In this document: positions 10,761 to 14,559 of the stretch, piece by piece
How positions within the stretch are numbered: the stretch's first letter is position 1
How the letters are laid out: each line of letters opens with the position of its first letter
Origin: an uncultured cyanobacterium
Lineage (GTDB): Bacteria; Cyanobacteriota; Vampirovibrionia; Gastranaerophilales; Gastranaerophilaceae
Length of the DNA stretch: 36,676 nt
Reading direction: 5' to 3'
Assembly (NCBI GenBank): GCA_945487905.1
Contig: CALYTW010000009.1
Location: 1 to 36,676 of the forward strand
The notes under the pieces: model-generated
Databases searched by the model: none
What the model was told of the DNA's origin: nothing
The model's input: only the letters and a program-made list of their open reading frames with translations
Made by a program: the position numbers and the translations under genes

Positions 10761-10831
10761 GAGCGCAAAAATAAAATTTACGTGTTTTTATATTTATGTT
10801 GGAAAATATCATAGTAAAAGGGGTCATAGAA

Positions 10832-12049
10832 ATGAAAAAATTAGTTATCGGTACCTTCCTTGTTGCGTTTGGTGTATTACCTTTCTGCGGTGTTCAAACA
10901 GCTCCGCAGGAAAACTCATTCGGACTTCAGAAAGTTGCTGCAATTACATTACGCTACGACAAGTCAATGAATGAAAAAATCATCAAAGCCGCTGTTATTG
11001 ATAGCTACTACAGACAAATTGTAAAAACAAGCAAAATTATACGATGGAACAAAAATTCTATGCCTTTAACCGTGTATATTCAGGATAGCAGAGATATTCC
11101 CGATTATTACAGAGAAGTGGTTATGAATGCCTACATTGCATGGCAGAGAGCCAGCGAAGGTATTGTGAGATTTGAGTTTGTAGAAAATCCTTCCGAAGCT
11201 GATATGAAGTGTTATTTTAAAAACGTAAATAACTCTGAATCAATAGGATTGCACGAATTTTCTGTAAACGGAAGCAGAATAACAAATTCGGTAATTACAT
11301 TTAACAAAACAGACAATAAAGGACACAGCCTTGATTCGAAACAGTTATTCTCATCAGCACTGCATGAAATCGGACATTCAATCGGTTTAACTGGAAACAG
11401 CACAAGTATTTATGACGTTATGTATCCTGTCGGAACTAAATTTAATACCGAAATCACGACAAGAGATTTAAAAACTTTGGCGCTTCTTTATGCAACAAAT
11501 CCGGATATTACAAATGTTCCGCTTAGTCAGAGCGAAAAAGCAATGCTCTTTACTCCGGCTGAAATTATTAATACGCTGAATGTTCCGGTTGACGACAATA
11601 CGAACTTGAATGAATTTGTAGGAACGGATATACCTTCTCATTTGGCACTTGCGGAACAGCTCAGAAAACGTGCACAGTATGATAAAGCTGCAAAAGAATA
11701 CCAGATAGTTGCTCAGGCAAAAAGTGATAACAGAAGCCGTTCGGAAGTATACTATGAAATTGCGGTAATGTATTTGGATGCGGAAATGTTCGATGAAGCA
11801 AGAAGTGCTGCAGAAATAGCATGGGCTACAGATGAAAATGATTTAACAATTACACTTCCGCCTTTGTTAAATTACTACATGAAACGTTCCAATACAGCGG
11901 TTCAACAGTTGGAAGAATTGTTGAAGGATAATCCTTACAACAAGTATGCATATAAACTTCTCTGCCAGATATACAGAGATAAACACCACGAAAACCTTTT
12001 GAATTCTACTATCAGAAGATACGGAAAAACAGCTGGTGAGGTCGAATAA
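10832..12049 (+). CDS. Secreted matrixin-like (M10) metalloprotease with C-terminal TPR region
   Basis: This 405-aa protein has a signal peptide (residues 1 to about 24). The metzincin-like domain (about 75-230) has 'MPLTVYIQD', 'VMNAYIAWQRASEGIVRFEFVENPSEADM' and the zinc site 'LHEIGHSIGLTGNS' (His178, Glu179, His182) with Met-turn 'DVMYP'. Cyanobacterial relatives usually read G-H-S after the second loop Gly; here that His is Asn189, so the third zinc ligand seems lost. From about residue 265 come helix pairs resembling TPRs ('HLALAEQLRKRAQYDKAAKEYQIVAQA', 'EVYYEIAVMYLDAEMFDEARSAAEIAW'). ATG 10832 is preferred over 10796, because AAGGGG lies about ten bases before it and the signal peptide starts there. 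A terminator follows. Confidence 0.8.
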   Translation: MKKLVIGTFLVAFGVLPFCGVQTAPQENSFGLQKVAAITLRYDKSMNEKIIKAAVIDSYYRQIVKTSKIIRWNKNSMPLTVYIQDSRDIPDYYREVVMNAYIAWQRASEGIVRFEFVENPSEADMKCYFKNVNNSESIGLHEFSVNGSRITNSVITFNKTDNKGHSLDSKQLFSSALHEIGHSIGLTGNSTSIYDVMYPVGTKFNTEITTRDLKTLALLYATNPDITNVPLSQSEKAMLFTPAEIINTLNVPVDDNTNLNEFVGTDIPSHLALAEQLRKRAQYDKAAKEYQIVAQAKSDNRSRSEVYYEIAVMYLDAEMFDEARSAAEIAWATDENDLTITLPPLLNYYMKRSNTAVQQLEELLKDNPYNKYAYKLLCQIYRDKHHENLLNSTIRRYGKTAGEVE

Positions 12050-12538: not shown

Positions 12539-12600
12539 AACCTCCATAATTTATTTTGAGATAGGTAAAGAATCTACTCGACTCGTTTATAAAGGAGGTT
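12539..12600 (+). promoter_or_regulatory. Possible SD-sequestering hairpin before the SLH gene
   Basis: AACCTCC (12539-12545) plus ATAA can pair with TTAT plus GGAGGTT (12587-12600), with an AAA bulge. The right arm is the perfect SD (AAGGAGGT) of the SLH gene. If transcribed, this stem would hide the ribosome binding site. A CATAAT at 12545-12550 could instead be a -10 box, in which case the left arm would not be in the mRNA. No full promoter was resolved in the 200-base gap. Confidence 0.4.
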
Positions 12601-12603
12601 AAA

Positions 12604-14559
12604 ATGACGATTAGAAAACTTACTGTGGCAGCTGCAATTGCCGTTGGTATAGCATCATGCTCTTTTAATACGGCAGTTTTTGCTGCATGCCCTTGCGACC
12701 AGCGCCCTATTGTTACCGGAAGAGCTTGTCCTTGTGAAGAATTGCCTGTTGTAACAGGTGCGGCTTGCCCTTGTGAACAGCCAAAAGTTGAACCGTGCGG
12801 ATGTGGTCAAACCCCGCAATGCGAGCCTGACCCTGTTCCTTCATGTGCATTATGTCCGAGTACAAAAGACTTGAGCAGAGAAAATATGAAACAGGTATAC
12901 GCTTATCCTAACGGTATCTATGGCTACAACAATTATGTGGGAACTCAGGCTGATTCTGTTTACTCGGCAGAAGGTTTTAGTATTACAAGAGACAACTCAA
13001 AATTGAGTGCAGGTACAATGGGTACTACCGTTGCTACTGATGGTTCAATTACCGGTGCTGCTGCGGATATTCCATGTATTAACGGTTTGACCGAAAGAAA
13101 CGGCGTTCCTATTATCAGAGATGAAGCTCGTATGGACGGAATGGGCTGTCCTATTCAAATGGGAACGGCTAACTCAATTCAGGCTGTCAAGAAAACTCTT
13201 GTACCGTTTGATTTAACACCGTTCGGCGAAATGAGTACAGGTGCAGCCGCAAGCTTGCAAATGTTTCCTGATGTACCTAACGGTTACTGGGCTTCGTGTC
13301 CTATTGACAAATTGGCAACAAATGATATCGTTGTCGGTTATCCTGACAGAATGTTCAAGCCGTCAAAAAACATTTCGAGAGCAGAATTTGCAACCATGCT
13401 TGTAAAAGGTTTCAACCACAGCATGTATTCCTGTGCTCCGGAAAAAATATTCTCTGATGTACCAACCAATCATTGGGCTAATTCTGCAATTACCGCAGCT
13501 GTTCATCAGGACATGTTAAAGGGGTATCCGAACGGCACATTTATGCCAAATCACAATGTAACAAGAGCAGAAGCACTTTGTGCATTGTCTAAAGGTTTAA
13601 AATGCACACAAGTTGATAAATGTAAAGCACAAGAAATTTTATCACAATACGCAGACGGAAATACTGTTCCTGAGTGGGCGCAAATTCCTATCGCAACTGC
13701 TTTAGAAAAAGGCGCTCTGGATAATTCTCCATGCCCGAAAACAATTGCTCCGTTTAAAGATGCTACAAGAGCTGATATTGCATCTATGCTTCAAAACATT
13801 CGTGTAAGCGCAGGTATTGATAAGAACCCGCAAACCGCAAATAACAATTGTCCTATGTGTCCTGTGGACAAAAAGGCCTTTGTTCAGGAAGAAGAAATTG
13901 TACAAATTCCTACATTACAGTTGGAATTTAAAGATCAAGTTACAGCAAAATCTTCTCATGTAGGTCAAAGATTTGCCGCAAAGACTCTTGAAGACGTAAC
14001 AATTAACGGTCAATTGTATCCTGCTGGATCAAATGTACACGGCAAAGTTGTTGAAGTTATTCGTCCTTCAGGATGCCAGAAAGGTGCTTTAAAACTTGCA
14101 TTTACCGAAATTGAAAATTGCGGAAACAAGGCAACACTTCCGAGACAAATTTTAACGGCTCAAATCGACAAATCAAATACACCAAACATTCTTTCAAGAA
14201 TAGTTACTGCACCGTTTACCTGGGCAGGTTCGATTGTCGGTATTGTAGGCCGTACAACCGGTGGTATGTTAACATCACTCGGTAATGCTGTTGAAGACGT
14301 ATCTTCAGGTACAGGTATTGCATTGGGTGAAGTATTCCAGGGTCAATTACCGGCTGCAGGAAGAAGTGCAATGGATGTTGTTAAAGACACAGTTAAGGCT
14401 CCTGTAGATTTAACAAGAACTGCTTTGTCAGGTACAATGGGCTTATTCCAAACTACCGGCGACGAAGTTGCATATATGGTTGATGCAAAGGGTTATAAAA
14501 TCTCTGCAATCAATCCGAAAGAACACGTTACCATTGCTTTTGGCTGTCAAGGCGAGTAA
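12604..14559 (+). CDS. Large SLH-domain surface protein with Cys-rich N-terminal repeats
   Basis: The protein is 651 aa. Signal peptide 1-27 (ends AVFA). Residues 28 to about 85 hold three copies of a 13-residue repeat (ACPC-[DE]-[QE]-x-P-[IV]-VTG-[RA]) plus further CGC and CxxC motifs, 11 Cys in all. Three SLH domains follow: about 220-270 ('FPDVPNGYWASCPIDKLATN', 'FKPSKNISRAEFATMLVKGF'), 280-334 and a weaker 345-400. SLH domains anchor envelope proteins to wall polysaccharide. A beta-rich domain (about 437-530, 'GQLYPAGSNVHGKVVEVIRPS') and a Gly/Ala-rich amphipathic tail complete it. There is no porin barrel. The perfect SD and strong terminator suggest high expression. Confidence 0.85.
   Translation: MTIRKLTVAAAIAVGIASCSFNTAVFAACPCDQRPIVTGRACPCEELPVVTGAACPCEQPKVEPCGCGQTPQCEPDPVPSCALCPSTKDLSRENMKQVYAYPNGIYGYNNYVGTQADSVYSAEGFSITRDNSKLSAGTMGTTVATDGSITGAAADIPCINGLTERNGVPIIRDEARMDGMGCPIQMGTANSIQAVKKTLVPFDLTPFGEMSTGAAASLQMFPDVPNGYWASCPIDKLATNDIVVGYPDRMFKPSKNISRAEFATMLVKGFNHSMYSCAPEKIFSDVPTNHWANSAITAAVHQDMLKGYPNGTFMPNHNVTRAEALCALSKGLKCTQVDKCKAQEILSQYADGNTVPEWAQIPIATALEKGALDNSPCPKTIAPFKDATRADIASMLQNIRVSAGIDKNPQTANNNCPMCPVDKKAFVQEEEIVQIPTLQLEFKDQVTAKSSHVGQRFAAKTLEDVTINGQLYPAGSNVHGKVVEVIRPSGCQKGALKLAFTEIENCGNKATLPRQILTAQIDKSNTPNILSRIVTAPFTWAGSIVGIVGRTTGGMLTSLGNAVEDVSSGTGIALGEVFQGQLPAAGRSAMDVVKDTVKAPVDLTRTALSGTMGLFQTTGDEVAYMVDAKGYKISAINPKEHVTIAFGCQGE
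12679..12784 (+). repeat. Tandem ACPC repeat coding region
   Basis: Three in-frame repeats of about 39 bases encode ACPC-D/E-Q/E-x-P-[IV]-VTG-type units; the third is truncated after ACPCEQPK. They differ at many synonymous positions, so the repeat is kept at protein level and is not a recent duplication. Confidence 0.7.

Follow-up and report, generated by a model that had tools for sequence, protein, structure and literature searches.

The Gastranaerophilaceae, gut relatives of cyanobacteria, appear to have an unusual main SLH protein in their envelope. Most likely, this protein is a periplasmic tether between the peptidoglycan and the outer membrane, whose N-termini would be joined by disulfides. 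We would give this reading a probability of about one half. The architecture of the protein is well supported: A signal peptide is followed by a disordered, cysteine-rich N-terminus, an SLH trimer of the type which recognizes pyruvylated polymers, and finally a domain which resembles the VirB10 CTD and contains a helical insertion (Table 1). Tethering and the cysteine chemistry are what we infer. The gene is found in a window of 36,676 nucleotides, the whole stretch of DNA that we have analyzed. The window belongs to a draft genome of 1.66 Mb. Among the relatives of this genome, those which have a name are Candidatus Gastranaerophilales, found in gut and rumen.

Table 1. Position of the gene and of the features found in it. 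Residue numbers refer to the 651 amino acid product.
Feature	Position	Strand	Basis
Gene of the 651 amino acid SLH/VirB10-like envelope protein	12604..14559	+	ORF, coordinates and length exact
Shine-Dalgarno sequence AAAGGAGG, near-perfect, start codon 5 nt downstream	12591..12598	+	Sequence
Putative signal peptide, residues 1–27, expected cleavage TAVFA / ACPC	12604..12684	+	By eye, alignment
Codons 7–18, synonymous sites nearly frozen	12622..12657	+	Fourfold-site identity
Cys/Pro-rich segment, residues 28–84, 11 Cys (CPC three times, CGC, CALC)	12685..12855	+	Sequence
Repeat unit 1, ACPCDQRPIVTGR, from residue 28	12685..12723	+	Sequence
Repeat unit 2, ACPCEELPVVTGA, from residue 41	12724..12762	+	Sequence
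Repeat unit 3, ACPCEQPKVEPCG, from residue 54, without VTG	12763..12801	+	Sequence
SLH module 1 (YWA, GYPD, SRAE)	13264..13392	+	Pfam PF00395
SLH module 2 (HWA, GYPN, TRAE)	13450..13575	+	Pfam PF00395
SLH module 3 (EWA, TRAD), divergent, without GYPD	13639..13776	+	AlphaFold, Foldseek to the SpaA SLH trimer, motif
VirB10/TrbI C-terminal-domain-like beta domain, residues ~435–648, helical part inserted	13906..14547	+	Models, structure and profile searches
Gly/Ala-rich helical hairpin, residues ~524–623, at the position of the VirB10 antenna	14173..14472	+	Low-confidence models, composition, TrbI by eye

Distribution and genomic context

In a sample covering the whole class, a full-length ortholog is present in 71 of the 74 genomes of the own family. 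Orthologs from the own genus are about 70–91% identical over their whole length, and those from five families elsewhere in the order (f2, f3, f4, f6, f7) have an overall identity of 34–45%. Beyond the order, matches in this sample are limited to the SLH part and to part of the domain which follows it. In one draft genome (G003), the gene is present as two complete copies which differ from each other, on contigs C109 (L035) and C124 (L008); they may correspond to a duplication or to mixed strains.

The gene stands alone. In the loci compared, none of the neighbouring genes is conserved: Both flanks are common only to the closest genome and neighbours are shared with the closest relatives only, and no conserved operon is seen. 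Just upstream, at 10796–12049, the window codes for a metalloprotease of the matrixin type (Peptidase_M10), which is exported and contains TPR repeats; it is not a conserved neighbour either. A protein with a Germane (spore-germination) domain is coded at 312–917, in a lineage which is not known to sporulate.

The cysteine-rich segment

The sequence ACPC recurs with an exact period of 13 residues (it starts at 28, 41 and 54), and the three units are followed by CGC, a single C and CALC, in this order. The original prediction described three ACPC-x-P-VTG repeats. The three ACPC units are there, but VTG is found only in the first two (at residues 37 and 50), so this description was slightly overstated. 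It also placed 11 cysteines right after the signal peptide and considered such an N-terminus unusual, and on both points it was right: The binomial probability of this number of cysteines is about 5e-10, taking as reference the 30 other ORFs of the window. These have 1.44% Cys, and none of their 57 amino acid stretches contains more than 5.

Close relatives retain the repeats, and neither a loss of the repeats there nor a lack of Cys conservation, which the original prediction had named as evidence against it, is observed. In 38 sequences at the genus level, the 11 Cys columns are 97% conserved, compared with 62% for the other residues of the segment (permutation p about 2e-4), and each of these columns uses both TGC and TGT. 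The Cys columns are kept while their codons are interchanged and their surroundings drift, so selection maintains the cysteines.

The five other families have a Pro-rich segment at the same place. It exceeds the segment of the own genus in length, with several hundred residues at most, and is in most cases rich in Cys, with the patterns CPC, CGC, CDPC and CPKC. A TG[AG]A motif, possibly a processing or modification site, is found before the SLH modules in these families, in up to nine copies (e.g., L028, L029, L034). The cysteines are not necessary for anchoring, since a 470 amino acid paralog in the same genome shares the SLH modules and the C-terminal domain but lacks these cysteines, and the ortholog L028 has only 12 of them in 568 residues.

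Disulfides can be made, as had been proposed: VKOR and DsbA domains are fused in a single reading frame of 407 amino acids in the own genome, and VKOR-DsbA is found in 16 of 19 genomes. We have considered an even number of cysteines as a sign of full pairing within the molecule, and no clear signal is found: With a rough cleavage rule, the Cys total is even in 72 and odd in 54 of 126 sequences. In these 54, pairing of all cysteines within the chain is impossible. CxC is enriched (374, compared with 247 ± 13 in shuffles), with CPC and CGC as the dominant forms, CxxC is mildly enriched, and CC is almost absent (10, compared with 249 in shuffles).

The main alternative takes the Cys-rich N-terminus as a segment which binds metal (Zn, Cu or Fe), or as a CxC/CxxC redox segment, instead of a disulfide cross-linker, with the rest of the protein as its anchor. 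Judging from the sequences, it has a real chance of being correct, although we do not favour it. The enrichment in CxC, together with the scarcity of CC, would fit metal binding, which also favours the CxC spacing, but the same spacing would be expected from disulfides which join partners of the CxC or CxxC type. Other genera have CPKCxKxxPDCxC stretches which resemble zinc sites; nevertheless, His is very scarce (0.34 per segment), and the number of motifs and the length of the segment vary strongly among families. Finally, odd Cys totals are common, as this alternative would allow, but an oxidising enzyme, VKOR-DsbA, is encoded.

Chlamydial OmcB is a Cys-rich protein of the outer-membrane complex, possibly cross-linked by disulfides. 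The likeness would be that of a Cys-rich envelope protein with possible disulfide cross-links, and proteins of the OmcB type are not known to have an SLH or a VirB10-like domain.

SLH modules and wall polymer

The SLH anchor of the original prediction is supported by three modules at residues 221–391 (Pfam SLH, E 3.1e-28). AlphaFold models the trimer confidently, and Foldseek matches it to the SpaA-SLH structure bound to 4,6-pyruvyl-ManNAc (E 3e-7). The protein agrees with the SLH proteins of pyruvylated polymers in having three modules with the W, GYPD and [ST]RAE motifs, except that GYPD is missing in the third one. A CsaB-type pyruvyltransferase (PF04230) is found in 19 of 19 genomes, with a value of 6e-40 in the own genome. 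From motif, fold and CsaB, we infer that the trimer grips a pyruvylated wall polymer made by this enzyme. Outside the SLH modules, no Pfam family matches the protein.

The C-terminal domain

Residues 437–651, which the original prediction had singled out, do contain a real domain, whose VirB10/TrbI-like fold had been missed. In the AlphaFold model, a beta domain is confident at residues ~426–522 and 624–648, around a helical insertion of low confidence (524–623). Foldseek with the C-terminal model alone gives CagY, from the Helicobacter Cag outer-membrane complex, as best match (E 1.1e-3, probability 1.00). In a second structural alignment, the best 14 rows are all VirB10 homologues, with Z from 9.3 to 6.4, and unrelated folds come next, at 4.6. 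Several of these rows are different entries of the same protein, so they amount to seven or eight independent proteins. The VirB10-homologue chains matched are TraF of pKM101, CagY, Xanthomonas VirB10, TrwE, ComB10, DotG and TraB of F-type plasmids.

Profile comparisons give a link through intermediates. With the profile of the domain, a match is obtained to TrbI-like proteins which are free-standing and come from the same class (97.6%, E 4.5e-12, 85 columns). These match the TrbI of type IV secretion systems (73%, E 3e-5) and, in SLH proteins from sister families, the TrbI-like domain (100%), and reversed controls do not exceed 1%. Several intermediates are above the Pfam TrbI cut-off, including an SLH protein from a sister family (G086, E 2.9e-9), the best of the Pfam TrbI matches among the SLH paralogs of sister families. 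Other searches gave little or nothing: Pfam TrbI (PF03743) has no match in the 651 amino acid protein, aligning the domain directly with T4SS TrbI by hhalign gives nothing (0.2%), the same is true when its profile is searched against PDB sequences, and tblastn against plasmids gives only chance matches. Pfam TraM, a VirB10-like family, matches 7 of 51 members weakly, with a best E of 0.049.

On the evidence of the models, the domain is VirB10/TrbI-like in fold. Fold and profile intermediates indicate that it is probably also related to VirB10/TrbI by descent. A helical stretch is found by eye at the same place, ahead of the last strands, in T4SS TrbI and in our protein. The hairpin formed by this stretch has a pLDDT of ~30 and is only mildly hydrophobic, so its insertion in a membrane would be a guess.

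We should also note that the free-standing proteins mentioned above are found in many genomes of the class, often several in each (L192–L209). They are exported, have 240–450 amino acids and contain a TrbI-like domain with a Gly-rich helical insertion, and are not known to have a role.

Our protein shares the fold and the place of the helical insertion with the C-terminal domains of VirB10, TrbI, CagY and DotG, from the outer-membrane core complexes of type IV secretion. On the other hand, the VirB10 of type IV secretion has an inner-membrane N-terminal helix, while our protein has a signal peptide and then the Cys-rich segment, with the SLH trimer replacing that helix. T4SS neighbours are absent and the sequences are barely related. 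It is unlikely that the protein belongs to a pore for secretion or export, in which VirB10-like outer-membrane rings would be fixed to the wall by the SLH modules. VirB10 forms outer-membrane rings in type IV secretion, as established for pKM101, and the fold and the antenna-like insertion would suit this role, but we are dealing with a single standalone gene without conserved neighbours in the loci compared, in a genome which contains no TrbI match and where no VirB7/9 partner has been seen.

The start of the gene

Of the high expression suggested by the original prediction, the near-perfect Shine-Dalgarno sequence is the only sign. AGGAGG is kept 5' of the orthologs inspected. Residues 1–27 look like a Sec signal peptide; in the alignment, read by eye, relatives have VMA in place of TAVFA at the expected cleavage site. 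In 75 orthologs, the identity at fourfold sites is 0.80 for codons 1–20, compared with 0.38–0.61 for every other block of 20 codons. Such frozen synonymous sites in the codons of the signal peptide point to a DNA- or RNA-level element within the start of the SLH gene. Several draft genomes (G002, G003, G004, G007, G010, G019, G021) have contigs which break close to the gene, some tens of bases or less from its start or its end, and overlap only briefly; loci L005, L006, L008, L011–L013 and L036–L040 lie at such contig ends. Perhaps contigs break here because co-occurring species share the frozen start of the gene.

It is rather improbable that the protein is a lipoprotein, with a lipid on C19 (in IASC) and its N-terminus seated in the membrane. 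This cysteine is found in 38 of 38 sequences at the genus level, with both codons in use, but the constraint at the DNA level on codons 7–18 may help preserve the sequence beside it. The IASC of the source species fits a lipobox; however, most relatives have IATC, and Thr before Cys makes a poor one. In the other families C19 is absent and an AxA-type site is kept.

The envelope of the family

Omp85 is found in 19 of 19 genomes, so an outer membrane is present and the organism is diderm. An SLH trimer bound to the wall polymer, with an outer membrane above it, would make the protein periplasmic: The surface location given by the original prediction is unlikely. Hardly any weight can be given to a surface lattice, although S-layers have been inferred from an S-layer-like gene (Di Rienzi et al. 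2013, PMC3787301) or, more generally, from SLH/S-layer-like genes of the group (PMC3787301, PMC4451040) and SLH modules are present, since the SLH-bound polymer of a diderm lies beneath the outer membrane, the protein has a VirB10-like C-terminal domain, and no S-layer is visible in images of Vampirovibrio, according to PMC4451040.

The own genome has three detectable SLH proteins, with 651, 470 and 378 amino acids. By sequence, the two paralogs end in a beta domain of the same general kind, and none of the three is long enough for a porin barrel. For the 651 amino acid protein an SLH-porin is ruled out, in agreement with the earlier claim that there is no barrel: Neither fold nor family searches give one, and the C-terminal domain has the VirB10-CTD fold. 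The SomB family NF033921 matches only the SLH part of this protein, with 24.5 bits (the cut-off is 100). In the own family, 61 genomes contain no match above this cut-off, which is passed in 14 from other families of the class, and OprB is found in none of 20 genomes of the genus. Soo et al. 2014 claimed somA and somB homologues for all Melainabacteria (PMC4040986); in the own family, the likeness to somA/somB seems to be confined to the SLH modules.

We have found no OmpA/Pal-type tether in the own genome. Its three OmpA-domain proteins read as MotB/ZorB-like inner-membrane proteins, and have been discarded as rival tethers. The tether search covered OmpA and SLH domains, and the absences reported here apply to the families searched and to draft genomes. 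Two loci of the own genome (L215 and L216, on C2 and C49) contain MotA/MotB-like pairs with OmpA domains, which resemble ZorA/ZorB of the Zorya anti-phage system.

The SLH-porins OmpM and SlpA (Veillonella OmpM1, Deinococcus SlpA, cyanobacterial SomA/B) have in common with our protein an SLH anchor to the wall polymer in a diderm and, probably, the role of holding the outer membrane. Unlike in OmpM and SomA/SomB, the SLH modules are central (221–391, after the Cys-rich segment) and not N-terminal, there is no coiled-coil stalk, the beta domain comes directly after SLH, a VirB10-like domain takes the place of the porin barrel, and a Cys-rich N-terminus is added. Omp-alpha of Thermotoga is also an SLH protein which reaches the outer membrane without a barrel (PMC9388160), but it does so with an extended coiled coil and a single transmembrane helix at the C-terminus, and has no VirB10-like domain.

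Proposed role and significance

In the tether that we propose, with the SLH trimer on the wall polymer, the VirB10-like domain would pack against the outer membrane from the inside, possibly in the form of a ring. Its hairpin of helices may insert into this membrane, like the VirB10 antenna. This arrangement is suggested by the fold and by the lack of any other detectable tether. Disulfides from the VKOR-DsbA enzyme would connect the free N-termini among themselves or with partners, as Cys conservation and the presence of this enzyme suggest. The protein would do the same job as the SLH-porins OmpM/SlpA of other Terrabacteria, by a different fold.

SLH proteins, VirB10 domains and Cys-rich envelope proteins are each already known. 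In a literature search, with most subscription journals outside it, we have found neither the combination of SLH, a VirB10-like domain and a Cys-rich N-terminus nor any work which joins VirB10 and S-layer homology. An undescribed envelope component, as originally predicted, is plausible, and there is a reasonable chance that it represents a new class of tether. A more specific form of this idea is tentative: a barrel-less tether with a VirB10-type domain outside secretion, SLH anchors and a disulfide mesh of Cys-rich N-termini, which would have replaced OmpM/SomA in gut relatives of cyanobacteria.

How the outer membrane is held in diderm Terrabacteria is an open question, and OmpM, with SLH and a porin, has been proposed as the ancestral answer. 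Here, a gut family has an outer membrane, the enzyme for the SLH ligand and SLH proteins, while OmpM, OmpA and Pal are undetected and the main SLH protein has a VirB10-like end. Two readings of the SLH genes of this family in the literature, as S-layer and as SomA/B porins, are questioned: Neither fits the proteins that we have seen. If the 651 amino acid protein is the tether, a different fold would have taken over from OmpM, and domains of the VirB10 type would exist outside secretion too.
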